The notes beneath the pieces were generated by a model. The model was not told where the DNA came from and did no database searches. It saw only the letters and a program-made list of their open reading frames with translations. 35,119 nt of DNA from a virus. Shown here one piece after another: positions 3,485 to 30,405 of the stretch. Position 1 is the first letter of the stretch, and every line of letters starts with the position of its first letter. Location: positions 1-35,119 of the IMG/VR virus record IMGVR_UViG_3300044613_001625; one strand, 5' to 3'. The position numbers and the translations under genes are program-made.

Positions 3485-3776
3485 GCCAACATCATCAACT
3501 ATTAAACGAATGGATGCGATTGATAAGCGTATGGATAACATTGAAACGCGTCTGGATAACATTGAAAGCAAGATTAATTTGATCTATACCGTCATTGTTG
3601 GCAATGAGTTGGACAAAAAGACTGGATTAATGTATCGCCTTCAACAAATCGAACGTGAACTTGATCAGGTGACAGAGCAGAACAATAGATTCAAATGGAT
3701 CAGCATCGGCATTGCCGTTGGATCTGGCGCCCTTGGTGGCGGGATTATGAATACGATCATATCACGACTCCTGTAA
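3471..3776 (+). CDS. XhlA-like coiled-coil membrane protein (lysis accessory/holin candidate)
   Basis: 101 residues starting at MTSNKPTSST. A longer in-frame extension back to 3345 would overlap most of the lysin 3' end and is rejected. Residues ~12-45 form heptads (KRMDAIDKRMDNIETRLDNI), a second helix follows (YRLQQIERELDQVTEQ), and residues ~77-97 make one glycine-rich transmembrane helix with a short basic tail (SRLL). This N-cytoplasmic coiled coil plus C-terminal membrane helix is the layout of XhlA/haemolysin-type holin partners. It is the last gene before the terminator cluster. A spanin-like or tail role is less likely. Confidence 0.65.
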   Translation: MTSNKPTSSTIKRMDAIDKRMDNIETRLDNIESKINLIYTVIVGNELDKKTGLMYRLQQIERELDQVTEQNNRFKWISIGIAVGSGALGGGIMNTIISRLL

Positions 3777-3791
3777 GAGTTAGGGAACAAG

Positions 3792-3820
3792 ATGCCGGAT
3801 TTGATCATTCGGCATTTTCT
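3792..3820 (+). terminator. Hairpin with T-rich tail after the lysis genes
   Basis: ATGCCG (3792-3797) pairs with CGGCAT (3810-3815) around a 12-base loop, followed by TTTCT. It lies 15 bases after the last late-gene stop. A weak to moderate intrinsic terminator. Confidence 0.55.
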
Positions 3821-3880
3821 TATATCTTGAGTCGTTAGAAGAAAATGGGACATGCATAATTCAAATCACTAGAGTTAGCT

Positions 3881-3905
3881 TGCCTAGCGTTTGATAGCCT
3901 AGGCA
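3881..3905. other. Inverted repeat in the late/early intergenic region
   Basis: TGCCTAG (3881-3887) and CTAGGCA (3899-3905) form a perfect 7-bp stem with an 11-base loop and no T-tract. It may be an operator or an RNA hairpin. The 288-base gap 3777-4064 otherwise holds two terminators and the early promoter. Confidence 0.35.
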
Positions 3906-3941
3906 TCATCGCAAGTTAGTTAGTTTGACAGTAACCTCAGA

Positions 3942-3976
3942 AAGCCTTTGCTTTGACCAGCAAGGGCTTTTTTTTT
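3942..3976 (+). terminator. Strong intrinsic terminator closing the late operon
   Basis: AAGCCTTTGCT (3942-3952) pairs with AGCAAGGGCTT (3959-3969), 11 bp with one G-U, loop of 6, and the T-run extends through 3976. It ends late transcription about 28 bases before the early promoter -33 element. Confidence 0.85.
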
Positions 3977-4003
3977 GTTAGAATATTAAAACACTTGTTG
4001 TTT

Positions 4004-4039
4004 TTTGTAACTTTATTGTACAAAATTGTATTATATTTG
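4004..4039 (+). promoter_or_regulatory. Early promoter of Bacteroidota type
   Basis: TATATTTG at 4032-4039 is an exact match to the TAnnTTTG -7 element, with TTTG at 4004-4007 as the -33 element (24-base gap, slightly long). The surrounding ~60 bases are very AT-rich. Transcription should start near 4046, about 19 bases before the ATG at 4065. Confidence 0.6.
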
Positions 4040-4040
4040 T

Positions 4041-4064
4041 ACATACACGTTAACACATACACGT
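4041..4064. promoter_or_regulatory. Tandem direct repeat, putative operator
   Basis: ACATACACGT occurs at 4041-4050 and again at 4055-4064, separated by TAAC (14-bp period). The pair covers the predicted transcription start and ends at the start codon of a ribbon-helix-helix-like gene. RHH repressors bind such direct repeats as adjacent dimers, so autoregulation is plausible. Confidence 0.5.
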
Positions 4065-4205
4065 ATGGAAACAACACAAAAACGCAATATTCATATTCAG
4101 TTACCAATTACCTGGTGCAAATGGCTGATCAGCAAGTACGGATCAGTTGGACTTGGCATCAAGGCGATCATAGCTGAGGCATACCACAAGGACAACAATG
4201 GATAA
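4065..4205 (+). CDS. Small ribbon-helix-helix-like protein, probable early regulator
   Basis: 46 residues starting METTQKRNIHIQLP. A basic N-terminus leads into a short beta strand (NIHIQLP), then helix A (TWCKWLISKYG), a turn and helix B (GLGIKAIIAEAYHK), the order and size of CopG/Arc/MetJ-type DNA-binding proteins. It is the first gene after the early promoter and its start abuts the ACATACACGT repeats, which fits autoregulation. Its stop overlaps the next gene start by 8 bp. The fold is inferred from pattern only; the Trp-rich helix A is unusual. Confidence 0.6.
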   Translation: METTQKRNIHIQLPITWCKWLISKYGSVGLGIKAIIAEAYHKDNNG

Positions 4206-4395
4206 CAACGAATATTTAGACGCAATCTTTCACATGAAGGACTTGCAATTTATGCACGGCGAAGCGCAGTTTATGGCACTGATGGCACTATACGCCAGCG
4301 ATGATAGCGCATGGCTGCGCTGGAATATTGAACTACGTAAGCTATCGGTAGCGATTCATCACCGAACCTATTACAAGGACAAAACCAATGATTGA
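4198..4395 (+). CDS. Unknown 65-residue early protein
   Basis: 65 residues, mostly helical, Met- and Ala-rich (IFHMKDLQFMHGEAQFMALMAL), with a hydrophilic C-terminus. No recognised domain. It is translationally coupled to the preceding RHH-like gene (8-bp overlap) and to the following membrane peptide (8-bp overlap). First-expressed small phage proteins of this kind often target host functions, but nothing in the sequence shows this. Confidence 0.65.
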   Translation: MDNNEYLDAIFHMKDLQFMHGEAQFMALMALYASDDSAWLRWNIELRKLSVAIHHRTYYKDKTND

Positions 4396-4453
4396 AGTTT
4401 TATTTTTCGCCTTTGTTGTAGGTGTATTAATTTACAACGGCGAGTTCGAATAA
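4388..4453 (+). CDS. 21-residue single-span membrane peptide
   Basis: MIEVLFFAFVVGVLIYNGEFE: one hydrophobic helix of ~15 residues flanked by acidic residues. Its ATG overlaps the previous stop by 8 bp and it ends directly at a 9-bp hairpin. Very short, so coding is supported only by the overlap pattern and the clean hydrophobic composition. Confidence 0.45.
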   Translation: MIEVLFFAFVVGVLIYNGEFE

Positions 4454-4483
4454 AAGTGCCATACGGTTCAGAGCATGGCACTT
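4454..4483 (+). other. 9-bp stem-loop immediately after a stop codon
   Basis: AAGTGCCAT (4454-4462) pairs perfectly with ATGGCACTT (4475-4483), loop 12. No T-tract follows, so it is more likely an attenuator, processing or RNA-stability element than a terminator. Confidence 0.55.
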
Positions 4484-4496
4484 ACCTTAATGCAAT

Positions 4497-4507
4497 CACA
4501 TAACTAA
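4497..4507 (+). promoter_or_regulatory. CACATAACTAA leader element, copy 1
   Basis: This 11-mer lies exactly 13 bases before the ATG at 4521. An identical copy lies exactly 13 bases before the ATG at 6560. Both follow a perfect stem-loop. Possibly a translation or transcription start element. Confidence 0.3.
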
Positions 4508-4520
4508 TCGACGCAAAGAT

Positions 4521-4967
4521 ATGATACTAAGTGACGTTTACCAAATCATAAGCAACCTTGACTACGAAATTGAGCAAGGTCACCTTAACCCGCTCAAAGG
4601 CTACGCTGAGTGTAAGCTATTAGCCGACCTATGTGCATCCATTATGGATAAGCACAAAGCCAGCGCGATCGCTGAGCGCATGAAGTACGGAAAGGAAGAA
4701 GTACTAATTAATGACTATGTCATTGATCACGTTCCGGGTCGTAAGATGCTAAGTTACAAGCACAACGAGACATGGCAAGAGCTTAACCGCAGGCTTAAAG
4801 AACATGAACAGCTAATGGCTATGGCTGCTAGTAATGTACCCGTTGCCAACACTGAAACGGGTGAAATGATTGAACCAGCGCAAGTTAGCTACAGCGCTGA
4901 ATCACTAAGATTTACTTATAAAAGACCCGAAACCCTTAACTATCGACGACCTGAGGAGATCAAATGA
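4521..4967 (+). CDS. Unknown early protein upstream of the ERF gene
   Basis: 148 residues. The N-terminal half is helical with a conserved-looking core (LDYEIEQGHLNPLKGYAECKL, LADLCASIMDKHKASAI) and resembles proteins that commonly precede recombination genes in Bacteroidota phages; I know no function. The C-terminal half is polar (RRLKEHEQLM... KRPETLNYRRPEEIK). It overlaps the next gene by ATGA and precedes two small helical genes and the ERF gene. A role with the annealing protein is suggested by context only. Confidence 0.75.
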   Translation: MILSDVYQIISNLDYEIEQGHLNPLKGYAECKLLADLCASIMDKHKASAIAERMKYGKEEVLINDYVIDHVPGRKMLSYKHNETWQELNRRLKEHEQLMAMAASNVPVANTETGEMIEPAQVSYSAESLRFTYKRPETLNYRRPEEIK

Positions 4968-5164
4968 ATAAGCAACTAACCGCTGCCGACTACCTACGCA
5001 TTCGCCAATACATAATTCAAGCAATCTGCGCGCTACCTTTTGAAGAGCGTGAGACTGGCTATCAAACGTTAGACATTCTACTTCAACTTTTAAGTGACGA
5101 AGACTTAAAAAAAATCGTAGAAAATACATATAACGAGTATATAAATCCATCCGTGGAGGCGTAA
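4964..5164 (+). CDS. Small helical protein, paralogue A of a tandem pair
   Basis: 66 residues. The core ADYLRIRQYIIQAICALPFEE ... TLDILLQLLSDEDLKKIVE aligns with the next gene (DYIELRAFIDRAFSELS ... LCELLLDQLNERDQNRLMEL), so the two look like a diverged tandem duplication. GAGGAG lies before the ATG. No known domain; probably a three-helix protein. It is followed by its paralogue after 2 bases. Confidence 0.65.
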   Translation: MNKQLTAADYLRIRQYIIQAICALPFEERETGYQTLDILLQLLSDEDLKKIVENTYNEYINPSVEA

Positions 5165-5166
5165 CT

Positions 5167-5343
5167 ATGGACAAGTTAAACCTAGATGATTACATTGAAT
5201 TGCGTGCATTTATCGACCGCGCCTTTAGTGAACTGTCAGCGCCTAACGCCTATAAACATTGGTCATACCTTTGTGAGTTACTACTGGATCAGCTAAATGA
5301 GCGCGACCAAAATAGACTTATGGAACTTATCAAACGTGATTAA
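5167..5343 (+). CDS. Small helical protein, paralogue B of a tandem pair
   Basis: 58 residues (MDKLNLDDYIELRAFIDRAF...). Strong GGAGG sequence about 8 bases before the ATG. Same length class, predicted helices and DY-x-x-x-R start pattern as the preceding gene. Its stop directly abuts the ATG of the ERF gene (TAAATG), so it is almost certainly translated with it. Function unknown. Confidence 0.7.
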   Translation: MDKLNLDDYIELRAFIDRAFSELSAPNAYKHWSYLCELLLDQLNERDQNRLMELIKRD

Positions 5344-5979
5344 ATGAATACTTCAACTAACATAACTAAATTGAGCATCGCCCTTGTGAAAGCACAGGGC
5401 GAGCTCAACGCCGTCAGCAAAGACGGCAAAAACCCACACTTTAAAAGCACCTACGCGACGCTTCAAAATATCGTTGAGTCAACACGTGATGTCTTGCACC
5501 GCCATGGCCTAGCCGTTGTGCAAACATTCAGTCAGACCGATGGAACGTACATTGACCTTACGACGACACTTGTGCATGAGTCTGGCGAATGGATCAGCGG
5601 AACGATTACGGTGCGACCAACGAAGCCTGACCCTCAGGGGCTTGGATCGGCTGCAACCTACGCCCGCCGATACGCTTACGCTGCAATACTTGGCATAGTG
5701 GCCGATGACGACGACGACGGCAATGCAGCAAGCGCACCGAATAACGATCGCGCGCCACAGGGTAAATATGAAAGTGACACACGCGAATGGCTCAACATAT
5801 TGGATCGCGATGGCAATCTGACCGATAAAGGTACTAAAATTGCTATGCGTTTAGCCGAAGATGGCGAGGCATGGATGGCGCTCGAAGCCAAGTATCGAAT
5901 GAGCAGCGCTACGCGCAACGCGCTTAAAGAAGTGGTAGACAAATTACGAACCAATCAACAATTTGAGCTAACACCATGA
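5344..5979 (+). CDS. erf: ERF-family single-strand annealing protein
   Basis: 211 residues. The first ~130 match the ERF superfamily: a start with ALVKAQGEL, NPHFKSTYATLQNI, VLHRHGLAVVQ, TTLVHESGEW and the signature PQGLGSAATYARRYAYAAILGI followed by the acidic run ADDDDDG. ERF proteins anneal complementary single strands in phage recombination and genome circularisation. The C-terminal ~80 residues are helical and variable, as in other members, and may recruit a single-strand-binding protein. It begins directly at the previous stop and overlaps the next gene by 4 bp. No exonuclease partner is obvious; the VRR-NUC protein downstream is a candidate nuclease. Confidence 0.9.
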   Translation: MNTSTNITKLSIALVKAQGELNAVSKDGKNPHFKSTYATLQNIVESTRDVLHRHGLAVVQTFSQTDGTYIDLTTTLVHESGEWISGTITVRPTKPDPQGLGSAATYARRYAYAAILGIVADDDDDGNAASAPNNDRAPQGKYESDTREWLNILDRDGNLTDKGTKIAMRLAEDGEAWMALEAKYRMSSATRNALKEVVDKLRTNQQFELTP

Positions 5980-6350
5980 AAAAGGGCAACGTTAACATTT
6001 ACGATTTGTTACAAGTCGAAACATCTTTAAGGTATTATTTGCGTCGAATTAATTACAAAGTTCAACCTAATGATTACGTTAACTGTTTTTACATACCATC
6101 CACAATGAAAAATATAGCAGCCTTTAAACAACGTGATGTACAAATGTATTACAAGGGTAAATTGATGGAGCCTAGAATGAGTGTTTGCCTAGTTAAGGAA
6201 ATTGACGTAGATTTAACGGGTTTATATATCAAACAGCAAGCCGAATACAATAGCGTACATCATCCAATGTCAATCACAACTTATGCCAGTCACATCAAGG
6301 AGAATGAAAAGGTATGCAAGCAAATAAAAATAGGAAATTACACCACTTAG
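5976..6350 (+). CDS. Unknown 124-residue protein after ERF
   Basis: 124 residues, basic, with many Tyr and Lys and no recognised motif. The start overlaps the ERF stop (ATGA). It is AT-rich relative to ERF. A role in recombination or replication is inferred from position only. Confidence 0.65.
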   Translation: MKKGNVNIYDLLQVETSLRYYLRRINYKVQPNDYVNCFYIPSTMKNIAAFKQRDVQMYYKGKLMEPRMSVCLVKEIDVDLTGLYIKQQAEYNSVHHPMSITTYASHIKENEKVCKQIKIGNYTT

Positions 6351-6475
6351 ATATACGCGATGTTCGGATGTCTAACGGGCGGATTGTTAGGATACGAGAG
6401 AGACGCAGCTTTGACGAGCGTTATTATCCGAAGCTGTACACATACGAAGATGTACCGATCAGAAAAAGCAAATAG
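6314..6475 (+). CDS. Small very basic protein (53 residues)
   Basis: MQANKNRKLHHLDIR... 53 residues, about a third Arg or Lys, overlapping the previous gene by 37 bp in another frame. AAAAGG lies before the ATG. The composition suggests nucleic-acid binding, but no fold is recognised. It is the last gene before a stem-loop and the lysin leader. Confidence 0.5.
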   Translation: MQANKNRKLHHLDIRDVRMSNGRIVRIRERRSFDERYYPKLYTYEDVPIRKSK

Positions 6476-6489
6476 GTTGAATCATGATT

Positions 6490-6515
6490 GATGCTAGGTG
6501 TGAAAGTCTAGCATC
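6490..6515 (+). other. 8-bp stem-loop before the glucosaminidase gene
   Basis: GATGCTAG (6490-6497) pairs perfectly with CTAGCATC (6508-6515), loop 10, no T-run. It parallels the stem-loop at 4454-4483: both are followed by CACATAACTAA and a start codon. Confidence 0.5.
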
Positions 6516-6535
6516 TATTCGCCCTTTATAAACAA

Positions 6536-6546
6536 CACATAACTAA
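6536..6546 (+). promoter_or_regulatory. CACATAACTAA leader element, copy 2
   Basis: Identical 11-mer to 4497-4507 and again exactly 13 bases before an ATG (6560). Confidence 0.3.
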
Positions 6547-6559
6547 ACATATATGCATC

Positions 6560-7264
6560 ATGCGATACATTATCATACTTTTACTCACCGCTTCAAGTGC
6601 TATCGGAGCACCTGCTGACAAGAAAGCATTCAGCAAGCAATATGCTTTCTTTGAACGCTACGCCGATGACATCATTCAGGCAAGCAAAGACACGCCCGGA
6701 CTACTTCCAAGCGTGGCATTAGCACAGGCAGCACTAGAGACCGGCTACGGTACGTCTTACCTATACAAGCAAGGACGCAATCTATACGGCATCAAGTACA
6801 CACGCGACCACAAAGGCGGCAGCATCTGGAGCAGCAAGGAAGGAGCGTTCCGTAAGTACAAGTCTGGCGGCGAATCTATCCGCGACCGTTTCCGACTGCT
6901 GAGTAAGGTCAAGCGATACAAGAAGGTGACCGAAACGATGAATCCTTACGAACAAGTAGACGCTATTGCTGCTGCTGGCTACGCTGAGGCGCGCAACTAT
7001 GCGCAAGTGATTAAGGGTATTATTGATGCATACGACCTGACCAAGTACGATGATATGCTTATGGAACAGATACGCATGGAGCAGTACACCGACCTGCAAC
7101 AATCCTTAATACGATATATAACACTTCAACATCAACCCATAAGACACGATTATGCTATTAGATCCTTTAATACAAATGATAGTGATTATAGGCTTGTTCC
7201 TATTCCTGCCGATACTGGCCTTGCTATACGCGTATCACGAGCGAAAAAGCAACGGTCAATTTAA
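6560..7264 (+). CDS. Secreted glucosaminidase-family endolysin
   Basis: 234 residues. Residues 1-17 are a Sec signal peptide (MRYIIILLLTASSAIGA, cleavage after AIGA likely). Residues ~28-165 match the glucosaminidase family (FlgJ/LytG type): PSVALAQAALETGYGTS with catalytic Glu60, GRNLYGIKY, GAFRKYKSGGESIRDRF, and NYAQVIKGIIDAYDL. Such enzymes cut the glycan backbone of peptidoglycan. The signal peptide means export may not need a holin, or the segment may act as a signal-arrest-release anchor. The C-terminal ~65 residues are not part of the domain and overlap the holin candidate by 113 bp. It lies in the early region, away from the other lysin at 2897. Confidence 0.88.
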   Translation: MRYIIILLLTASSAIGAPADKKAFSKQYAFFERYADDIIQASKDTPGLLPSVALAQAALETGYGTSYLYKQGRNLYGIKYTRDHKGGSIWSSKEGAFRKYKSGGESIRDRFRLLSKVKRYKKVTETMNPYEQVDAIAAAGYAEARNYAQVIKGIIDAYDLTKYDDMLMEQIRMEQYTDLQQSLIRYITLQHQPIRHDYAIRSFNTNDSDYRLVPIPADTGLAIRVSRAKKQRSI

Positions 7265-9051: not shown

Positions 9052-9539
9052 AACGCATCCACCTACAAGCCATATATCCCGACAAGGCTATCGAAAGCAT
9101 CAAGTGGCATCTATCCATGATAGGCAAGCCAGCCGACACAACGACCATTTATCACATCTTAGATCAGCTTGTCCGCAACAATCCAAACTTCCACAATGAC
9201 TACGAGATCGAAGACACGTTAGATGCATTTTTTAAGGCTATTCACTACGGCAGCCTTGAACTACGCAACTTTACCATCAGCGCGCATACACGTCTACTAA
9301 ACATCTACCTAAACGATCGATATAAGAACAAAGGATTTAGCGACGAGGTACGCAGCGAAAAACCTGATACATGGGTATACGATCCTGATGAGCCACTGCC
9401 CGCATCCATTACACGCGATAAGGCAAAGGAACTTTTAAATCTTATCGCTAAATTGTATCATAACGATATGCAACGCGTCACTGATAGCAATAACTTCATG
9501 CATTACATAAACAAATTAAAGGTTAGGTATTACGAATGA
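9048..9539 (+). CDS. Unknown replication-region protein
   Basis: 163 residues, helical, hydrophilic. Segments such as TTIYHILDQLVRNNP, FFKAIHYGSLELRNFTIS and LLNIYLNDRYKNKG suggest a helical domain like those linked to DnaB-loader or replisome-organiser partners, but I cannot assign a family. It overlaps the initiator gene and the methyltransferase gene by ATGA on both sides, so the three are translated together. Confidence 0.7.
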   Translation: MKRIHLQAIYPDKAIESIKWHLSMIGKPADTTTIYHILDQLVRNNPNFHNDYEIEDTLDAFFKAIHYGSLELRNFTISAHTRLLNIYLNDRYKNKGFSDEVRSEKPDTWVYDPDEPLPASITRDKAKELLNLIAKLYHNDMQRVTDSNNFMHYINKLKVRYYE

Positions 9540-10672
9540 TACATTTTAGTTTGTTTAGTGGTATAGGTGGTTTTGATTTAGCTTCAGAATGGATAGGTTG
9601 GCGTAATATGTTATCGTGTGAGATTAATAGCTTTTGCAACAAAATACTTAAGTATTACTGGCCTAATGCATACCATCACGAAGATATACATACATTAAGT
9701 TATGAGGTTATAAATGAGAACCTTTCAACACGATACGGAAATAATTGGCGATCAGATGACGTTATTCTTACAGGAGGATTCCCTTGCCAGCCATACAGCG
9801 CAGCAGGTAAGAGACTTGGCAAGGAAGATGACCGTCACCTCTGGCCTCAAATGCTTAGAATCATACGAGAGGTTCAACCGACATGGGTTGTGGGCGAAAA
9901 TGTTTTCGGGCTTATTAATTGGAATGAAGGGTTGGTCTTCGATGAGGTGCAGTCTGATTTGGAAGCTGAAGGGTACGAAGTCCAACCGTATGTACTTCCA
10001 GCTGTGGCCGTCAACGCCCCGCACCGTAGAGACAGGGTTTGGTTTGTTGCCCACTCCAAGAGCAATGGAAGTCATAGAACATCCAATGAAGCAAGCGGAA
10101 AGATTGGGCGACAGGACAGGGATGAAGTTGAACAACCTACAATCTGCGGCGAGATTTGGGATGCTACCAACTCCGACAAGTGTTCAAAGAGAATATCCAG
10201 AAAGAGTAGCAGCTTTAAAAAAGACAAAAGCAAAGACGATGATGAGCAGAGCAAATGGAGAGAACAGGCCAAACAGTATAATGGATGCAGTAGTATTTTA
10301 CAATATGCTTCCGACACCAAGAGTAAAAGGTCACGGCAATTCGCATCAGAGAATCAAGGATGGCAAGATAGACGATTTGACAACTATGGCACGATTCAAT
10401 ATGCTTCCGACACCAGATTGTTCAGACCGGCGGAGCAAAAACAGCAAACAGAAAGGACTTTCAAATATGGTAAGTGGGACAGCTTCCCAACTCAATCCCC
10501 GATTTGTAGCGGAGATGATGGGCTTCCCACCGAATTGGACGGAATTACCTTTTCTAAATGGAGAAACGAAAGTATAAAAGGTTATGGGAACGCAATAGTA
10601 CCACAAGTTGCATTGCAAATATTTAAAGCTATAAAATTATGGGAAGACCAAGCAAATACAACAACGAAGTAG
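9536..10672 (+). CDS. C5 cytosine DNA methyltransferase
   Basis: 378 residues with the ordered C5-methyltransferase motifs: I FSGIGGFDLA (7-16, SAM binding), IV TGGFPCQPYS (79-88, nucleophile Cys84), VI GENV (120-123), VIII HRRDRVWF (163-170), and IX/X at the C-terminus with GYGNAIVPQVALQIFKAI. It transfers a methyl group to C5 of cytosine, presumably to protect phage DNA from host restriction; no cognate endonuclease is seen. The variable region 175-340 is polar and low in complexity, with HSKSNGS, NSDKCS and two YASDT copies. That region and much of the catalytic core overlap a 287-codon open frame (9714-10577). It overlaps the upstream gene by 4 bp and TerS by 34 bp. The target sequence cannot be predicted. 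Confidence 0.93.
   Translation: MIHFSLFSGIGGFDLASEWIGWRNMLSCEINSFCNKILKYYWPNAYHHEDIHTLSYEVINENLSTRYGNNWRSDDVILTGGFPCQPYSAAGKRLGKEDDRHLWPQMLRIIREVQPTWVVGENVFGLINWNEGLVFDEVQSDLEAEGYEVQPYVLPAVAVNAPHRRDRVWFVAHSKSNGSHRTSNEASGKIGRQDRDEVEQPTICGEIWDATNSDKCSKRISRKSSSFKKDKSKDDDEQSKWREQAKQYNGCSSILQYASDTKSKRSRQFASENQGWQDRRFDNYGTIQYASDTRLFRPAEQKQQTERTFKYGKWDSFPTQSPICSGDDGLPTELDGITFSKWRNESIKGYGNAIVPQVALQIFKAIKLWEDQANTTTK
9714..10577 (+). CDS. Overlapping +1-frame gene with LPTP repeats, dual-coded with the methyltransferase
   Basis: 287 residues entirely inside the methyltransferase gene, frame +1 relative to it. It is not a random open frame: four LPTP motifs recur at 10044, 10161, 10305 and 10401 (LLPTPRAME, MLPTPTS, MLPTPRVK, MLPTPDCS), an N-terminal block reads LFLQEDSLASH, RKMTVTSGLKCLE, WKLKGT and LWPSTP, and the C-terminus is LNPRFVAEMMGFPPNWTELPF. 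I recall this architecture in stand-alone phage proteins that accompany C5 methyltransferases, but cannot check it here. GAGG precedes the ATG. Function unknown; a methylation partner or specificity factor is possible. The repeated HS/NS/YASDT motifs of the methyltransferase are the same DNA read in the other frame. Confidence 0.6.
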   Translation: MRTFQHDTEIIGDQMTLFLQEDSLASHTAQQVRDLARKMTVTSGLKCLESYERFNRHGLWAKMFSGLLIGMKGWSSMRCSLIWKLKGTKSNRMYFQLWPSTPRTVETGFGLLPTPRAMEVIEHPMKQAERLGDRTGMKLNNLQSAARFGMLPTPTSVQREYPERVAALKKTKAKTMMSRANGENRPNSIMDAVVFYNMLPTPRVKGHGNSHQRIKDGKIDDLTTMARFNMLPTPDCSDRRSKNSKQKGLSNMVSGTASQLNPRFVAEMMGFPPNWTELPFLNGETKV

Positions 10673-11043
10673 CCGACAGGATCTGTAACTGGATTAGTGA
10701 AGGCAAGTCATTACGCTCATTTTGTCGGGATGAAAACAATCCTGGCTTGCGTACCGTACTCGACTGGCTTAATGACGATGAGAAACAAAGTTTTCGCGTC
10801 AAGTACGCGCGCGCGCGGGAGATACAAGCGGAAGTAATGGCCGACGAATTGCTTGAAATTGCCGACGATACTAAGCCCGATCAGCTTAAACTAGCGCACG
10901 ATAAAATGAAGATCGAAACGCGTCAATGGATAGCGGCCAAACTATTGCCCAAAAAGTACGGCAACATCCAACACATTGAAGACATTACCCAAACGCCTAA
11001 ACAATTAGTTATTGTGACAACAGACAAGGACATAAACACTTGA
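10639..11043 (+). CDS. terS: Terminase small subunit
   Basis: 134 residues. GRPSKYNNEVADRICNWISEGKSLRSFCRDE begins an HTH-type domain typical of small terminases that start with GRP-x-K/T-Y, continuing TVLDWL, the helix YARAREIQAEVMADELLEIADD, and KIETRQWIAAKLLPKKYG. TerS recognises the phage DNA and hands it to TerL. The gene overlaps the methyltransferase end by 34 bp and ends at a TTGA overlap with a glycosyltransferase gene, about 2.9 kb from TerL. Confidence 0.85.
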   Translation: MGRPSKYNNEVADRICNWISEGKSLRSFCRDENNPGLRTVLDWLNDDEKQSFRVKYARAREIQAEVMADELLEIADDTKPDQLKLAHDKMKIETRQWIAAKLLPKKYGNIQHIEDITQTPKQLVIVTTDKDINT

Positions 11044-11702
11044 ACATTACCGTACTCACACCATCGATCGGCACGCCTCAGTTAGCCGAAGCCGTATACA
11101 GCGTATCAATGCAGACTCATCCAGTTCGTCACATCGTCGTTGCTGACGGTCGCAAGTACTTAGCCGAAGTTACTAAGCAAGCTATGCGCGGATGGAAGGG
11201 CGAGCAACAAACGCCTAAGATCTACGCGCTACCCGATAACACGGGACGCAATGGGTACAACGGTCACAAGGTGTACGCCTATTTCGCTCAGCTACTTGAC
11301 ACCGACTATCTTTGTTTACTAGACGAAGACAATACCTTTGACCCTGATCACGTCGCATCACTTTACGACGTGGCTAGTAAGCTAGGCTATGCGTTTAGCT
11401 TGCGTAAGGTGTACGACAAGCAAGGGCAGTTCATCTGTTACGACACGTTTGAAAGCAATGGCAAGTACAACAGTGACGGATATATCCTTGTTGACACTTC
11501 ATCATGGATGTTATCGCGTGATTATATCAAGTACCTAGCACACTTTGATGTGCCACTTATTGGCGACCGACCGTTTACCGAAGTCATGTATAAGATTACC
11601 GCAGGCATGAATCGCAAGCTTACCGATGCATGCACGGGACTTTACACTTGCAATTACTTCGCAGACAAACATACCCTTCAATTTTTTAAAGATAGATCAT
11701 GA
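11040..11702 (+). CDS. GT2-family glycosyltransferase
   Basis: 220 residues starting at TTG (11040), which overlaps the TerS stop as TTGA. The N-terminal [24 protein letters not shown] is the first strand and helix of a GT-A/GT2 fold, IVVADG follows, and [17 protein letters not shown] (about residues 95-111) carries the DED metal-binding motif. GT2 enzymes transfer a sugar from a nucleotide-sugar donor. The rest ([13 protein letters not shown]) is compatible with an acceptor region. It heads a three-gene glycan cassette with an epimerase and a second GT-like gene, all coupled by 4-bp overlaps. The acceptor is unknown. Confidence 0.85.
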
Positions 11703-12553
11703 AGATTCTCGTAACTGGTGGCGCTGGATTCATTGGCACTAATCTAATTAAACGCCTTGTAGCTGAAGGGCACGACGTTATATCGTACGACAACTATAGC
11801 ACGGGCAGCCTAGACAATCATCAGCCAGGGGCTAGATATCAAGGAGGCATTCTTGATAATTCGCTTCCTATTTTAGTTGCTGAGCAGGAGTTCGACTTGT
11901 GCTATCACTTGGCAGCTCTTGCACGTATACAGCCGTCTTTTGTGTATACGACCGCGTACTTTAATAGCAACGTTGTGTTCACGCAGGAAATATTACAATT
12001 AAGTGTAGAACATGATTTTAAAGTGATATACGCTGGATCATCATCCAAGTACGGGGGCGTTCACAGTTCACCATACGCAAACTTTAAATGGCTGGGTGAG
12101 CAGCTATGTGAGATGTATCATAACATGCTTGGCGTTGACGTTCTTATTGCTCGATTTTATAATGTGTACGGACCTTATGAAATAATGAAGGGATCACAGG
12201 CTGCGCTTATTGGCAAGTGGAGGCATTTAGTTGAGACCAACGAAATGATCCCGATCGTAGGCGATGGCCGACAGTCACGCGACTTCACGCACGTAGATGA
12301 TATCGTTGATGCGCTTGTACGCATGGCTGACTACGATGGAGACTGCATGGACTTCGATCTTGGCCGTGGCCAGTCGTATATGATCAACGAAGTCTTTGAT
12401 ATGTTTCAACAGCGTTATGATCACCTTATAAGTTACTACATTGACGATCAGCCAGGTAATTACAGCTTCTGCAAAGCCGACTATCAAAAGGCGCAGTATG
12501 AACTAAAATGGACACCGACCCGCAATCTTCCCGACTATATCGCCAGCTTATGA
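11699..12553 (+). CDS. NAD-dependent nucleotide-sugar epimerase/dehydratase (extended SDR)
   Basis: 284 residues. The Rossmann motif [10 protein letters not shown] (6-15) is followed by SYDNYSTG, the active-site region AGSSSKYG (112-119) and the YxxxK pair Tyr126-Lys130 in [10 protein letters not shown], then RFYNVYGP and [15 protein letters not shown]. This is the extended SDR family of GalE-type 4-epimerases and 4,6-dehydratases; I cannot choose between them. It acts on a UDP- or dTDP-sugar in the cytoplasm and probably supplies the donor for the flanking glycosyltransferases. At 284 residues it is somewhat shorter than GalE (~335). Coupled on both sides by ATGA overlaps. Confidence 0.88.
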
Positions 12554-13230
12554 AGCCTATCATACTATCGCCTTACATGGCAAATATCGATCAACGTGTA
12601 GTCAAAGCTCAAGCCGACACGCTCGCAGCGATAGCGCCTAACATGCCCATCTTACAGGTACGCACGGATAGCAGTCACGGTGACACGGTGGATTACATGC
12701 TGCGTAAGTGCATTCAGTCCGGCTACGATACCGCGCTACTGCTCGACATTGACGCTGTGCCGTACGATCTGCACGCGATTGAGTACACACTAAGACAAGC
12801 GCATAAGGGAATTTTAATCGGCAACGTGCAACGATCTAATCACATTGACAATGATCAGCATCTATTTGTAGCCCCATCATTTATGGGCATAAGCCTGTAT
12901 CACTACGGTCTTGTTGATATGCCCAGCTTTGTAGAGACCAAACGCGGAGACGTAGCCGAAGAAGTGACCTACGCATGGGAGCAAAACAATTTGCTCACTG
13001 AGTTCTATATGCCATTGCAATACGAGAATCCACCTGCTGAATGCCCATTTTGGAAGCTTCGTGATGATATGCCGGTGTATGGATGTGGAACAACGTTTGG
13101 CACGTATACGAACATAGGCACGCGTTCGATGTCGTATCATGCCTTCCAGATACGGATGGGGCGTAACGTGGAGAACTTTTTGGCTAAGTGTGCGTCAATT
13201 ATCAAGGCACATAAAAAAGGTGTAAAGTAG
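12550..13230 (+). CDS. GT-A-like glycosyltransferase, last gene of the first cassette
   Basis: 226 residues from [13 protein letters not shown]. An extension to 12508 would overlap the epimerase and is unlikely because ATGA coupling is the rule here. TALLLDIDAVPYDLHAI supplies a DID motif in the usual GT-A position, followed by KGILIGNVQRSNH and, late, YGCGTTFGTY. The family is not one I can name; sugar transfer is inferred from the motif and from its neighbours. Two minus-strand terminators overlap its 3' end, showing convergent transcription with the tRNA-like unit. Confidence 0.65.
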   Translation: MKPIILSPYMANIDQRVVKAQADTLAAIAPNMPILQVRTDSSHGDTVDYMLRKCIQSGYDTALLLDIDAVPYDLHAIEYTLRQAHKGILIGNVQRSNHIDNDQHLFVAPSFMGISLYHYGLVDMPSFVETKRGDVAEEVTYAWEQNNLLTEFYMPLQYENPPAECPFWKLRDDMPVYGCGTTFGTYTNIGTRSMSYHAFQIRMGRNVENFLAKCASIIKAHKKGVK

Positions 13231-24690: not shown

Positions 24691-26870
24691 GTTTAATAGC
24701 CCGTAACATAGCGAGCCGTGCAGGCAACATAAGCTTTGAAATCGACGCAGCCGGCACGAATGCCACGTTCGATGTTATCAGCATGTCGACACTTGATTAT
24801 GATTTCGATCTAGTCACTAGCGAGGATCAGCTTACCTACTTAGCTGCTATACCAGGAGCGATGACGATCACAGCTGTAGACAAGCTATCTAATATGGGTA
24901 GCATGTTCACTGTGATTGAAACAGGTATAGGAGACTATCAAAATAAAGAATGGTATACTGTACTTACGTCTAACGTGAATATGGTACTATATTCGCGTAC
25001 AAATTCGCTTAACACGTATCGTTTCCCGTTTACTATTAGATATCAAGACGTTCGTTTGGACGAGCGAAGCGGTCATATATCGCTACAGATGAGCCCGCGA
25101 TATACAAATTACACAATGTTTAAATGGGGTCAAGAGCGATCATCCATATATGCAGCGACCAACATACCTATTTTTGACAAGACGGCGAATCGTATCTATG
25201 GTGATGGATCGAATACCGTATTAGCTGGTGACTTTATATATGATGTTGTTTCTCAATACTATACAGGTCCAAGCAATAGTAACATCTATAATAGTGCAAG
25301 CAACATAGGAAATTCAGGGCCACTCGAGTTGATGGGTGGCAATGAGCAAATACAGACATTTAACGGTGTAGCCTATGGAATGTTTCCTAGGCTTGCTGAA
25401 ATTAAAGCCTATGACTACGGTACGATAGTACCTAATTTGCAATTTGACCCGGCAAAGACTAGCGATTACGATGGCGTAACAACGTTTGAACTAGTGCGTC
25501 GTTTGGCGGCTATGGAAGGTGCAATATTTGGATCAGCATTTAGCGTTAACTTTTATATCAATAGAACATCTAACGCTAATAACGTAACGATATCTAATAA
25601 CGATATCATAGATCTATCGTTTGAGCCTGTTCCAAGATCAATAAGTAGCGTTGATATCAAGTATGGCGTAGGTGGCACATCGCAGACTGTTAACGCCGCG
25701 CTTAATCCGATATCAATGCGCAATGCTACCTATATAGCTTGGCAAGATGCGCCTCAAAAACTAACGTTAAATCATATTAATCTCACGCCATTTCTTACCT
25801 ATGGTCATCTTGAAACAAATATAACATACGCTAATGGACGTTCTAATAGCGCTATATTTCGTCCAGGATTGACGTTTAGTGAAGAGTTTGATGCGTATGT
25901 AACTAATATAAATAAAGTAGCTTTAAGCGCTTATGGCCCAGCATTAGGCCTAACACAAAGCGAAGCAGCCGTATACACGATTGAGCTGAGCCTTATTGGT
26001 GCGGAAAAAATACGGCCATACCATGCGTTTCAATTTGATACGAGCGTGCCGACGCGCTATCAAAATAAGATGTATCGTCCGTCGTCTATTAGCTATGACT
26101 TCATGCGTGATACGGTCAGCCTACGCGCGTATGAGATTGGAGTAGGTACATCGCCCGAGCCAGTGACAACTACAAGTACATCAACATCCACGACAACCAC
26201 AACAAGCACAACATCAACTACTACACTACTATATTACTTATACGCTGACCTTGGATCAGGACTTGGTAGTAACGGAGCGTGTAGCACATATCCAAATCCA
26301 ACGGCAGATGACATCTATGGCAATCAGCCGACTTTTGCTGGTAGTACGATGTTTTATGAACTAACGGGTGGGAATATATACACACCATATAATGGTGGCC
26401 AAGGATATTTCAGCGATGGCGTAAACTGGAAGCAAATTAATACAGATGGAAGTGTAATGTCATCAGGTACATGTCCAGCAACTACGACAACTACAAGCAC
26501 ATCAACGACAACAAGTACAACAACAACAAGTACAAGTACAACTACCACAACAAGCACGACAACAACAACTACAGCAGCGCCAACATGTAACATTCCAACA
26601 TTTATTTCATTAACTCATATTAGCGGTACAACATTTGAGTTATCCTATAACGCAAATACGACTTCAGAAACATGTGATTATATCTTAGCAATTGGTTCCA
26701 ATAGTCCAGATTTTACAGGAGCAGTACAATCACAGCAATTAACATGTTCATCTCCTGATGAGGCTAATTTTGATTCACTTCTACAAACAACTATATATGT
26801 TAAAATGTATAAAGTTTGTACAGGATTAGCAAGTTCAGAATATTCAAACACATTATCCTACACATATTAA
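24687..26870 (+). CDS. Tail-tip protein with two mucin-like Thr/Ser linkers
   Basis: 727 residues, GTG start overlapping the previous stop. Residues 1-~490 are beta-rich, with SFEIDAAGTNATFDVISM, FRPGLTFSEEFDAYV and YDFMRDTVSLRAYEIG, and may be a baseplate-hub or Tal-like body. Two linkers made almost only of Thr and Ser follow: residues ~493-513 and ~597-630. Between them is a ~85-residue domain (CSTYPNPTADDIYG, SDGVNWKQINTDG). The last ~95 residues look like a fibronectin-III-like domain (PTFISLTHISGTTFELSYN...). Extended Thr/Ser tracts are typical O-glycosylation sites, and the next genes are glycosyltransferases. Glycosylation is inferred. Confidence 0.75.
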   Translation: MSLIARNIASRAGNISFEIDAAGTNATFDVISMSTLDYDFDLVTSEDQLTYLAAIPGAMTITAVDKLSNMGSMFTVIETGIGDYQNKEWYTVLTSNVNMVLYSRTNSLNTYRFPFTIRYQDVRLDERSGHISLQMSPRYTNYTMFKWGQERSSIYAATNIPIFDKTANRIYGDGSNTVLAGDFIYDVVSQYYTGPSNSNIYNSASNIGNSGPLELMGGNEQIQTFNGVAYGMFPRLAEIKAYDYGTIVPNLQFDPAKTSDYDGVTTFELVRRLAAMEGAIFGSAFSVNFYINRTSNANNVTISNNDIIDLSFEPVPRSISSVDIKYGVGGTSQTVNAALNPISMRNATYIAWQDAPQKLTLNHINLTPFLTYGHLETNITYANGRSNSAIFRPGLTFSEEFDAYVTNINKVALSAYGPALGLTQSEAAVYTIELSLIGAEKIRPYHAFQFDTSVPTRYQNKMYRPSSISYDFMRDTVSLRAYEIGVGTSPEPVTTTSTSTSTTTTTSTTSTTTLLYYLYADLGSGLGSNGACSTYPNPTADDIYGNQPTFAGSTMFYELTGGNIYTPYNGGQGYFSDGVNWKQINTDGSVMSSGTCPATTTTTSTSTTTSTTTTSTSTTTTTSTTTTTTAAPTCNIPTFISLTHISGTTFELSYNANTTSETCDYILAIGSNSPDFTGAVQSQQLTCSSPDEANFDSLLQTTIYVKMYKVCTGLASSEYSNTLSYTY
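26165..26228 (+). repeat. Thr/Ser codon tract 1
   Basis: A microsatellite-like ACA/ACT/AGT/TCA/ACG run encodes TTTSTSTSTTTTTSTTSTTT. Slippage here could change linker length in threes of bases. Confidence 0.85.
26476..26577 (+). repeat. Thr/Ser codon tract 2
   Basis: Longer tract of ACA/ACG/AGT/AGC/TCA codons encoding about 32 consecutive Thr or Ser residues, ending in AAP. Same character as tract 1; the flanking DNA to 26870 is notably AT-rich. Confidence 0.85.
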
Positions 26871-26872
26871 AT

Positions 26873-27820
26873 ATGCAGCAGCTTAGATACATGTGTTCGC
26901 AGCCGGCTACCGATTACTACGCGTGGCAAATCGAAACGATGCTCACTAACTTCTACGCGATGGGCATCAATCCCAATCACATTGACATTGTATGTCACAA
27001 GCAAGGGTGCGTTGTGCCACCTATCTGGGAGCGTATGGCGGAGGCGTACCCATCACGTTTCTTTTTCTACTGCGATACACGTAAGAATCGCAATTACATT
27101 AGCAGTATACGGCCTAATATTTTAAGGCAACACTGGGAAGCGCATCCGTACCTACAAGATGACATCATCTTTTACCACGACTGCGATATGCTTTTTACCA
27201 AGCCACCGCATGACTGGCTAACAGATAACCTACTAGACGGTGATGAATGGTACGGATCGGACGTACGCTGGTATATCGGGCATGATTACATACTGAGCAA
27301 AGGCCAAGACGTCCTTGATGCCATGATGGATATTATGGGAATCAGCCAAGACCTGATCAAAGCCAAGAGCGAAGACAAGCAAGATATTGGCGCTCAGTAC
27401 CTTATGAAAAACGTGGACGCACCATTCTGGTATAGCGTCGAATACTTTAGCGAGCGCTTATTCAAGGACATCAATGAGCTATCCAATAAGAAGAAGCAAG
27501 AGATCGAGAAGTACCACGAGCTGCAAATCTGGTGCGCCGATATGTGGGCGCTGCTATGGTCAGCGTGGAAGCGTGGCATAACAACGAAAATTGATACAGC
27601 GTTCAATTTCGCATGGGGTACGTCGGCCTATCATGAGTTAGATAACTTTAATATCTACCATAATGCGGGCATAACAACCAACGCTAACGGTCTATTCCAC
27701 AAGGCGCAGTACATTAACACCCCACCTTACAAGCTAGATTTACAAGTGCCAGCATCATCGGCAACAGCCTATTATTATGAGTGGGTTAAGCGAACGGAAA
27801 CGAACACTATCTTAATATGA
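26873..27820 (+). CDS. GT-A-like glycosyltransferase directly after the mucin-like tail gene
   Basis: 315 residues from MQQLRYMCSQP (an extension back to 26816 would overlap the tail gene). FFFYCDTRKNRNYISSIRPNIL, then IIFYHDCDMLFTKPP with a DCD metal motif, then GDEWYGSDVRWYIGHDYI. The pattern recalls eukaryotic hydroxyproline/serine-directed arabinosyl- and galactosyltransferases (HPAT/SERGT type), but I cannot verify the relationship. The C-terminal part contains WALLWSAWKRG and FAWGTSAYHEL. It begins 3 bases after the stop of the Thr/Ser-rich tail gene, so that protein is the obvious candidate substrate. Substrate is inference. Confidence 0.65.
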   Translation: MQQLRYMCSQPATDYYAWQIETMLTNFYAMGINPNHIDIVCHKQGCVVPPIWERMAEAYPSRFFFYCDTRKNRNYISSIRPNILRQHWEAHPYLQDDIIFYHDCDMLFTKPPHDWLTDNLLDGDEWYGSDVRWYIGHDYILSKGQDVLDAMMDIMGISQDLIKAKSEDKQDIGAQYLMKNVDAPFWYSVEYFSERLFKDINELSNKKKQEIEKYHELQIWCADMWALLWSAWKRGITTKIDTAFNFAWGTSAYHELDNFNIYHNAGITTNANGLFHKAQYINTPPYKLDLQVPASSATAYYYEWVKRTETNTILI

Positions 27821-28392
27821 TCATCGAATTTGTCATTGCAACATACATAAATACCGAAGCCCTAATATTAATGTTGCAGTGCCTTCGTGTGCAAACATCA
27901 AAAGATTGGAAAGCACACGTTGTAATTGATGGTCATAATGACGCATACCAGCGTATCAAAGATATGTACGCTAGTGATGATCGCATACGATTTACTTATA
28001 TAGATGGGCCAAATAACGACTATGGCCACACGCCTCGCAACTATGGACTTGAGCAAGCAACGGGCGACTTTGTCATTTTAACGAGCGATGACAATTATTA
28101 TGTGCCTACCTTTGTTGAAGTGTTTACCAAGGCAGCACGCGATGATACGCGATTTATGTACTGCAATATGATACACAACTATAGCGCGTATAAGCCTCAG
28201 GAATGCCATCCAAAATTCCAGCACATAGATATAGGTAACATGGTGATGCGTACCGAATTTGCTAAACAACTTCGACTAGACGTGAAGGCACACATGGCCG
28301 ATGGGTGGATGTGCGAGGAATTTATCAGTAAGTTTTGCCAAGACCCAAGCACTGTATTAAAAATTAACAACACACTTTACGTACACAACTAA
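27817..28392 (+). CDS. GT2-family glycosyltransferase
   Basis: 191 residues. IIEFVIATYINTEALILMLQCLRVQT is a GT2 start, followed by HVVIDG, FTYIDGPNNDYGHTPRNYGLEQATGDFVILTSDDNYYVP with the SDD metal motif in the standard place, and NMVMRTEF. Short but complete for a single-domain GT2. Coupled by ATGA to the upstream gene and by TAATG to the methyltransferase gene. Confidence 0.85.
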   Translation: MIIEFVIATYINTEALILMLQCLRVQTSKDWKAHVVIDGHNDAYQRIKDMYASDDRIRFTYIDGPNNDYGHTPRNYGLEQATGDFVILTSDDNYYVPTFVEVFTKAARDDTRFMYCNMIHNYSAYKPQECHPKFQHIDIGNMVMRTEFAKQLRLDVKAHMADGWMCEEFISKFCQDPSTVLKINNTLYVHN

Positions 28393-28934
28393 TGGATACA
28401 TTACAAAGCATTTACGATGCGCACAAACGCGCGCCTAACTATGGCGATAAGGGTACGGTGCATACCTATATTCAGGAATATGAGCTATTATTTAAGCCGT
28501 TTCGCAATGGATGTACGATACTTGAAATAGGTGTATATCAAGGCGGATCTATTTTGATGTGGGATGACTACTTTACTGACTCACATATAATCGGCGTAGA
28601 CATTAATGATCCAGAATTTGAGATTGCTGATTGCAAAAACAAAGTTACTTTAATAAAGGCCAATGCAACTCATCCAGTATTACTAGATCATTTAGGTGAT
28701 GTCAAATTAGACATTGTTATCGATGATGGTAGTCATAACATATTTGATATGGTTGCATCCTTTGAGTTGATAAAAGATCGCATGAACAAGGGTGGTATCT
28801 ATATCATCGAAGACGTGCAGCAATTCGACGTTCAGGGTTATGTATTATCTGCACTCCATCCATCATTCCGGTTCATTGACAATCGTTCGTTACAGGGCAG
28901 GTATGACGATGTACTAGTTATATATACGTTCTAG
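28392..28934 (+). CDS. Class I SAM-dependent methyltransferase (Methyltransf_24-like)
   Basis: 180 residues. ILEIGVYQGGSILMWDDYF is the SAM-binding glycine-rich loop, IIGVDIND the acidic second strand, and DIVIDDGSHNIFDMVASFELI followed by GGIYIIEDV the catalytic half. This set (E-G-x-x-x-G-S, DDGSH, EDV) is typical of Methyltransf_24/cephalosporin-hydroxylase-like enzymes that methylate sugars. In this cassette it probably O-methylates a transferred glycan. It is followed 2 bases later by a second methyltransferase. Confidence 0.82.
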   Translation: MDTLQSIYDAHKRAPNYGDKGTVHTYIQEYELLFKPFRNGCTILEIGVYQGGSILMWDDYFTDSHIIGVDINDPEFEIADCKNKVTLIKANATHPVLLDHLGDVKLDIVIDDGSHNIFDMVASFELIKDRMNKGGIYIIEDVQQFDVQGYVLSALHPSFRFIDNRSLQGRYDDVLVIYTF

Positions 28935-28936
28935 TT

Positions 28937-29455
28937 ATGAAGACAAAAGTAGTTAATAGCGAAGATCCTAAAGAGCATTGGAATGACATAACAAATATTG
29001 AAAATGCTACAATATTAGACTTAGGATGTGGATGGTTATTTCAGCCGTTTGAATCAACACCTGAATTTTTTATTAATAACAAAGCATCTAAAGTAATTGG
29101 CGTTGATTGCGCGGGTGGCGAAATTGCTAAGTTAAATGAAACTTATCCTGATCATGTTTTTATTTGCAAAGAAATAAATGAAGCAAATGATGTAATTGAT
29201 CTCATTAATATGTATCAGCCTGATATAATTAAAATGGATATTGAAGGTTATGAAATACTGCTCAAAGATATCACTCAAGATCAATTTAAGTCGGTGAAGC
29301 AAGTAGCTATTGAGTATCATAATAATGAGTGTAAACAGGTATTATGCAGTAAGCTTCCAGAATTAGGATTTTTGATAACAAATATTAATCAATTTGGATG
29401 GTATGTAACTGATATAGAGCAAATGGGTATCATTCACGCGAGGCGACATGATTAA
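28937..29455 (+). CDS. FkbM-family methyltransferase
   Basis: 172 residues. NATILDLGCGW is motif I, VIGVDCAGGEI motif II, and IIKMDIEGYEILLKDI is the FkbM hallmark, followed by VAIEYHNN. FkbM enzymes O-methylate sugars and natural products. AT-rich relative to the head genes. With the preceding gene it gives the cassette two different methylation activities, which suggests capping of a glycan chain. Overlaps the next gene by 8 bp. Confidence 0.85.
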   Translation: MKTKVVNSEDPKEHWNDITNIENATILDLGCGWLFQPFESTPEFFINNKASKVIGVDCAGGEIAKLNETYPDHVFICKEINEANDVIDLINMYQPDIIKMDIEGYEILLKDITQDQFKSVKQVAIEYHNNECKQVLCSKLPELGFLITNINQFGWYVTDIEQMGIIHARRHD

Positions 29456-30326
29456 AATACTTAATGCGACCTATGGTGATGTCGATTGTAAAGATATACT
29501 AATATCAAAAATAATAAACAATAAGCTAATCATAAGAGCTAATAATGATATTTGCGGTGACACAAAGCCAGGGCATGTAAAAAACCTTATAATTGATGCC
29601 ATAATTGAAGGCATACAAGTCAATAGCATAACTAAAGAAGGCGATTTACTTGTAATGCCAGCATCAACAAATAATAGACTTGGCATATTTTACAGCAATA
29701 ATACCAACAGTAAACTAGTTCCATCAGTAACAGCAAGCCTTAATTCAATTAAGGTAGCTAGTCAATCTATCGCTGATATATATACATGCGTGTGGGATAG
29801 CGTGCCTAATAATCCCTTTTATCAATGCAATGCATGGACGCGAACAAGCTCGCACCTCAATCAGCTCTTGCAAATAATGCAGCTACTTTATCTAGCTAAG
29901 TCGGCAGGTAAATATAAGTATGTATCTTTTTTAGAACACGATGTATTATACCCAGAGGGATATTTTAGATACCCTGATTTTAATCAAGGATCGATACTTA
30001 CAAATATGAACTATGGCGGCATAAATAGAAATGGTTGGCAAAGACGATCACAAGATGACGAACCATTTCATCAAATGACCATGCATTTTGAGGATGCGTT
30101 AGAACATTGTAATACGATACTTGAAAACGCTTTGCTTACTAATAGCGGACTTATTGAGCCTCAAAATCTTAAGCGAGAACAATGGCAGTGCGAAAATGAG
30201 GCTATACACATCAATCATGGCCATCATTTTACAAGTCATTACAACGTTTATAGTAAAGAAAATACATACCTAGATCATCCATATTGGGGTGATCACAGCA
30301 AGTATGCACATTTATTAGATGTATAG
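29448..30326 (+). CDS. Possible glycosyltransferase with an N-terminal DUF3395-like domain
   Basis: 292 residues. Residues 1-~75 (ILNATYGDVDCKDI, LIIRANNDICGD, GHVKNLIIDAI, EGDLLVMPAS) resemble the DUF3395 domain of DnaJ-C11-like proteins, a small beta module. From ~100 the chain has SIADIYTCVWDSVPNNPFYQC, YVSFLEHDVLYPEG with an EHD motif where GT-A enzymes carry DxD, and many His (INHGHHFTSHYN). A GT-like role is inferred from the EHD-strand and the neighbourhood. AT-rich with AGA codons. Ends 79 bases before the next gene; that gap is AT-rich with no exact promoter match. Confidence 0.5.
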   Translation: MIKILNATYGDVDCKDILISKIINNKLIIRANNDICGDTKPGHVKNLIIDAIIEGIQVNSITKEGDLLVMPASTNNRLGIFYSNNTNSKLVPSVTASLNSIKVASQSIADIYTCVWDSVPNNPFYQCNAWTRTSSHLNQLLQIMQLLYLAKSAGKYKYVSFLEHDVLYPEGYFRYPDFNQGSILTNMNYGGINRNGWQRRSQDDEPFHQMTMHFEDALEHCNTILENALLTNSGLIEPQNLKREQWQCENEAIHINHGHHFTSHYNVYSKENTYLDHPYWGDHSKYAHLLDV

Positions 30327-30405
30327 TTGTCGCCTAACAAATAAAGTTGCAAAAATCAACAAAAAATTTGTTTAATTTATACTAAACTTTAACCTACCTA
30401 ATCTT

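Follow-up and report, generated by a model that had tools for sequence, protein, structure and literature searches.

In this study, we report a viral locus in which a C5 DNA methyltransferase gene and a second open reading frame (ORF) nested inside it probably encode, from two reading frames, the two polypeptides of one enzyme with a build like that of M.EcoHK31I. The stretch of DNA that was analysed, hereafter the window, is a 35-kb viral contig (35,119 nucleotides). A preliminary description of it had proposed that a 287-codon gene is dual-coded within the methyltransferase gene; both plus-strand ORFs were confirmed, the second one being in the +1 frame (Table 1), and, on the sequence comparisons given below, this second frame is a real, conserved protein-coding gene. 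The same description had supposed a partner able to modulate or redirect methylation. A role in directing methylation is likely, but the +1 product looks like a missing part of the enzyme more than like an accessory, because it has motif IX, which is absent from the methyltransferase frame.

In profile searches, the frame-0 ORF matched PF00145 (E=5e-41) and TIGR00675 (E=8e-39, above the cut-off), and its PF00145 match, catalytic PCQ and motif X place it among the C5 cytosine DNA methyltransferases. The +1 product matched the PHROG 1008 'DNA methyltransferase' profile (E=2.2e-26); no model of Pfam or NCBIfam matched it, and nothing was found in the PDB with the LPTP profile. The four LPTP motifs first described are present in the +1 product. 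Their positions had been given as those of the residue preceding each motif, and the true starts lie 3 bases later (Table 1). The motifs YASDT and LPTP are indeed one DNA read in two frames.

Regarding the surroundings of the pair, its flanking genes in the window resemble those that flank the same pair in Bacteroides phages. Because of these neighbours, and because the relatives found in genomes are mostly from Bacteroidota, a Bacteroidota host is likely for the window phage. Elsewhere in the window, long tandem repeats were observed within ORFs at positions 418-1294 (units of about 147/300 bp) and 33433-33734 (units of about 120 bp). Additionally, regions 11040-13230 and 26816-31245 contain genes resembling, as judged by sequence only, glycosyltransferases, a nucleotide-sugar epimerase and small-molecule methyltransferases, in a number that is unusual for a 35-kb phage contig.

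Table 1. Position of the two nested ORFs of the window and of their sequence elements.
Feature	Position	Strand	Source
Frame 0: C5 DNA methyltransferase (alpha), 378 aa; motifs I-VIII and X, motif IX unrecognisable	9536..10672	+	
Frame +1: LPTP protein, proposed beta subunit, 287 aa	9714..10577	+	PHROG 1008
GAGG, putative Shine-Dalgarno-like sequence, 6 nt upstream of ATG 9714	9704..9707	+	Sequence
Second in-frame ATG of the +1 ORF (Met15), candidate alternative start	9756..9758	+	
Frame-0 motif IV Pro-Cys-Gln, catalytic Cys84	9782..9790	+	
Frame-0 motif VIII PHRRDR	10019..10036	+	
LPTP motif 1, frame +1	10047..10058	+	
LPTP motif 2, frame +1	10164..10175	+	
LPTP motif 3, frame +1 (YASDT in frame 0)	10308..10319	+	
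LPTP motif 4, frame +1 (YASDT in frame 0)	10404..10415	+	
Frame-0 residues 182-313, position of the target-recognition domain; predicted disordered, pLDDT < 50	10079..10474	+	AlphaFold
Frame +1 LNPRFVAEMMGFP, matching C5 motif IX (M.HhaI LHPRECARVMGYP)	10491..10529	+	
Frame-0 motif X Gly-Asn (GNAIVPQV), 32 codons past the start of motif IX	10586..10591	+	

Conservation of the +1 product is highest at its C-terminus, LNPRFVAEMMGFPPNWT. This segment matched motif IX of M.HhaI (KLHPRECARVMGYPDSY as aligned) with a score of 40 vs. a shuffled mean of 8.9 (p=1e-4), and the best match to this motif lay in the last 40 residues of the +1 product in 69 of 70 loci. No such match to the M.HhaI motif IX was obtained with frame 0 (p=0.15), and when motif IX was taken from another canonical enzyme, that of IPP55, the +1 product matched it only weakly (p=0.09). 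Motif IX was located solely in the +1 frame and motif X in frame 0 in 140 of the 148 distinct loci, with a distance of 32 codons between both motifs in 136 of those 140, while canonical phage enzymes have the two in frame 0 and 33-34 codons apart. Therefore, at the DNA level the motifs follow one another as in a normal C5 methyltransferase and at its spacing, with the reading frame switching between motifs VIII and IX and returning before motif X. Single-chain C5 enzymes, unlike the split ones, combine a canonical motif IX with an ordered recognition domain in one polypeptide; frame 0 has no recognisable motif IX and no predicted ordered recognition domain.

The AlphaFold model of the frame-0 protein was mostly confident for residues 1-180 and of high confidence for the motif X helix, with residues 182-313 having a pLDDT <50. 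Foldseek matches of this protein to M.HhaI and M.HaeIII spanned about 180 residues, corresponding to the large (catalytic) domain only. The +1 product was modelled with a mean pLDDT of 58, a low confidence that does not suffice for a fold search. Its model shows helices at the N-terminus, a hairpin and, from one LPTP motif to the next, short helices, with no recognisable recognition domain at that confidence; this protein may need its partner to fold.

To evaluate the openness of the +1 frame, the synonymous codons of the methyltransferase were permuted within the gene, preserving the protein and its codon usage. In the overlap of the window, a mean of 6.7 stops per shuffle appeared in the +1 frame and none of the 200 shuffles was without a stop. 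Over the +1 overlap of 70 loci, a set chosen via the small (+1) protein, 0 stops were observed vs. 430 expected under the same permutation; the shuffle of one of these loci (L005) was uninformative (expected 0), the effect being only a lower expected total. These values bear out the earlier assertion that chance would not leave such a frame open, and the stop codons looked for in the second frame of relatives were not encountered. As clear negative controls (n=2), we took the canonical C5 methyltransferases of Streptococcus phage IPP55 and Staphylococcus phage IME-SA4, which have their motif IX in frame 0; the +1 frames of these genes were interrupted by stops after 118 and 91 codons. Therefore, being a C5 methyltransferase does not itself force an open +1 frame.

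In 95 pairs of related genes, the third-position differences per codon of the methyltransferase were 0.36 and 0.41 in the two ends outside the overlap, 0.22 where the overlap is conserved and 0.27 where it is variable. Within the variable overlap, methyltransferase codon positions 1, 2 and 3 had values of 0.35, 0.22 and 0.27, respectively, the fastest one, position 1, being the third position of the LPTP frame. Amino-acid identity in the variable region was 0.56 for the LPTP frame vs. 0.47 for frame 0, with the former higher in 86% of 1190 pairs, although the loci are related and these pair counts are not independent. Given that the expected identities assume saturation of synonymous sites, only the comparison between the two frames was used. 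On these rates, the substitution pattern is explained by neither frame alone, and the changes were not confined to those that are synonymous in the methyltransferase frame. Stop depletion, codon-position rates and amino-acid identities support selection on both products. Additionally, of 188 distinct loci, 183 have at least one ATG for the +1 frame ahead of motif IV.

In some relatives the two parts are joined in other ways. In mycobacteriophage Xena and its relatives, frame 0 ends right after motif VIII and the next gene, in the +1 frame, consists of the LPTP modules, motif IX and motif X; both adjacent genes of Xena are annotated as 'DNA methylase'. In Gordonia phage MelBins, frame 0 runs on from motifs I-VIII into the LPTP modules and motif IX, and motif X follows. 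The same arrangement, with a recognisable remnant of motif X, was found in contig L211, whose close relative L210 has the LPTP modules and motif IX in the +1 frame. Therefore, the arrangements of Xena, MelBins and L211 locate the LPTP array in the place of the target-recognition domain, between motifs VIII and IX. The earlier suggestion that LPTP-rich proteins also occur as separate phage genes was not supported: the LPTP region of every relative found overlaps, abuts or is fused with a C5 methyltransferase. Free-standing LPTP genes were sought in phages, viral contigs, plasmids and genomes, and every match examined had a C5 methyltransferase alongside. The only homologues found outside the overlap were the adjacent or in-frame-fused parts of the same enzyme in Xena, MelBins, L210 and L211.

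With respect to distribution, a search with the +1 protein gave 80 viral loci, all of which have both frames, always in the same +1 relation. As a guard against the selection bias of this search, the methyltransferase alone was also used, and all 80 loci recovered carry an open LPTP-like +1 frame. The pair was found in named phages of Bacteroides, Porphyromonas, Paenibacillus, Lactobacillus, Synechococcus (cyanobacteria), Salmonella and Escherichia. An open +1 frame of partial extent was found in phages of Mycobacterium, Gordonia, Klebsiella, E. coli and Microcystis, those of Mycobacterium, Klebsiella and Microcystis being more distant. The pair was also present at 18 loci of bacterial genomes, mostly of Bacteroidota, which are probably prophages. 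When an E. coli phage was used as query, the +1 protein was detected in 202 phage records, phage epsilon15 among them, and in 16 plasmids; DNA similar to the locus of that phage was present in 66 of 5426 E. coli genomes, a count at the level of DNA similarity only. Contig L046/L048 contains, at positions 3703-6629, two consecutive copies of the whole two-frame locus with differing LPTP arrays. In L109 (KT997847, positions 1773-2716), the methyltransferase N-terminus (motifs I-II) is out of frame with the remainder and the gene is annotated as two, reflecting either a natural split or a sequencing error.

It must be noted that, in several relatives, a stop-containing insertion separates GGFP from CQP and thus immediately precedes the catalytic cysteine (L229-L275, L281-L283 and L285, and also L019, L021, L043, L060, L114, L117 and L122). 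In the 51 viral genes with a motif IV insertion found by a pattern scan, the 6-nt insertion was in every case a stop codon plus one codon, the stop being TAA in 36, TGA in 11 and TAG in 4. The codon after the stop was YYN in the 6-nt insertions, while that of L117 measures 9 nt. Frame 0 was conserved past the insertion, through motif X in 41 of the 51 genes, and the +1 frame was open in these loci, with a match to the LPTP profile in 46 of 47 tested. Because frame 0 stays conserved past the inserted stop, reinitiation, bypass or some other recoding seems to be needed there; an Rfam search at the insertion found nothing. Just 5' of it, an HNH-endonuclease-like segment lies in frame within the methyltransferase in L233, L239, L251 and L256 (also in L252, L263 and L270), and in another frame in L247. 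The HNH-like segment together with the insertion suggests a homing element and the immunity of its site. L004 (MT835926) has, at about 1500-2470, an intein-like insertion exactly at the motif IV catalytic cysteine (FPC...VVHN-CQP) with in-frame stops inside.

In the explanation that we consider probable from sequence and prediction, the alpha chain (frame 0) would provide the catalytic domain of motifs I-VIII, with AdoMet binding and the catalytic cysteine, followed by a flexible linker in the place expected for the target-recognition domain, and by motif X. The beta chain (+1 frame) would be initiated separately inside the alpha gene. Its N-terminal domain would overprint motifs IV-VIII and be followed by LPTP modules, in a variable array that acts in recognition, and then by motif IX. 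Both chains would form one enzyme, a heterodimer in which beta provides the small, DNA-reading domain, and this enzyme would methylate the phage genome, probably against host restriction. Nevertheless, because motif X stays in alpha, this chain might be active by itself, the recognition region then being of an unusual kind. As for its origin, the middle of an ancestral gene could have been displaced in frame, with later overprinting on both sides, giving the N-terminus of beta over motifs IV-VIII and the linker of alpha over the recognition domain and motif IX. We propose only tentatively that a single ancient frameshift-based rearrangement led to this reciprocal overprinting, that it has been kept in phages infecting most of the major bacterial phyla, and that the LPTP modules are specificity units that can be exchanged; if true, few dual-coding pairs of phages would be larger or more widely conserved.

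Other explanations have to be weighed against a two-polypeptide enzyme. The +1 product could be a separate regulator or inhibitor, either of the methyltransferase or of host defence, with alpha being complete by itself. In this regard, frame 0 is unbroken up to and including motif X, selection acts on it in the overlap too, and accessory roles are frequent among overprinted phage genes. However, a regulator leaves unaccounted for the presence of motif IX in the +1 product at canonical spacing, the fusion or adjacency of LPTP-IX-X to motifs I-VIII in actinophages and an alpha chain without a predicted ordered recognition domain, and we regard it as unlikely. It is quite unlikely, too, that a single-chain enzyme arises by ribosomal frameshifting, with ribosomes leaving frame 0 for +1 ahead of the LPTP region and, in the window type, returning ahead of motif X. 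One +1 shift would certainly connect motifs I-VIII with LPTP-IX-X in Xena-type phages, and in-frame fusions occur naturally, but two shifts are required in the window type, the +1 frame is already open and constrained over motifs IV-VIII (0.22 vs. 0.36-0.41), far upstream of any shift point, and the upstream ATG of nearly all loci is consistent with separate initiation.

Finally, the +1 frame could be open merely as a consequence of methyltransferase conservation, codon bias or repeats and yield no protein. Repeats do yield YASDT and LPTP from one DNA, and conservation of one frame supports the other. Against this stand the total lack of the 430 expected stops, the better conservation of the LPTP frame in the variable region and the stops that canonical C5 methyltransferases do have in that frame, so that we judge this explanation highly improbable.

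The two-polypeptide principle and a few annotations of the nested ORF are already known. This ORF is annotated in phages Shelly ('g55 internal gene'), Lily ('g62 internal gene'), K1G ('Mte8-like protein') and PhiXhv-18, and the PHROG 1008, 'internal gene' and 'Mte8-like' annotations of Paenibacillus larvae and K1G-type phages correspond to the same +1 nested ORF, given without explanation. No paper describing the overlap was found in our literature search. Within the literature and collections searched, the explanation by motif displacement, the likely recognition role of the LPTP modules, and a conservation of such breadth and depth appear to be new. To our knowledge, long and deeply conserved same-direction overlaps are rare in prokaryotes. 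The overlap is common in phages, where it is usually annotated as a single gene, and many enzymes would have a hidden second subunit; cloning of a single ORF of such methyltransferases would be expected to yield inactive or misassigned enzymes. Additionally, hundreds of natural pairs are offered for the study of dual coding and of modular DNA recognition.

With respect to known systems, the beta gene of M.EcoHK31I is likewise nested in an alternate frame of its alpha gene. M.EcoHK31I (YGGCCR) is a two-polypeptide enzyme whose large chain has motifs I-VIII and X, with only motif IX on the smaller chain (PMC3404938). At the level of motif layout in the sequence, the window is alike, with I-VIII and X on the large chain and IX on the second one. 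Unlike M.EcoHK31I, the second chain of the window has an array of LPTP modules and its family is spread over phages of many phyla; moreover, the alpha chain of M.EcoHK31I was reported with a predicted recognition domain, whereas that region of the window alpha is predicted to be disordered and the LPTP modules are there in the +1 frame. M.AquI is naturally split into alpha and beta, the smaller chain having the distal variable region with motifs IX and X, and the ability of such halves to assemble is known from single-chain C5 enzymes, by complementation of their fragments (PMC3404938). The window shares with M.AquI the natural split and a second chain with motif IX and part of the variable region, but it has motif X on alpha instead of beta, so that the Xena-type actinophages fit M.AquI better. 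A phage methylase gene with an inserted homing endonuclease also has overlapping frames, whereas the +1 ORF of the window would be part of the enzyme and is kept in nearly all relatives. In multispecific enzymes of the SPR/phi3T type, tandem modules lie between motifs VIII and IX of one chain, while those of the window are in the +1 frame; modules in one chain, as in that type, were found only in MelBins and L211.
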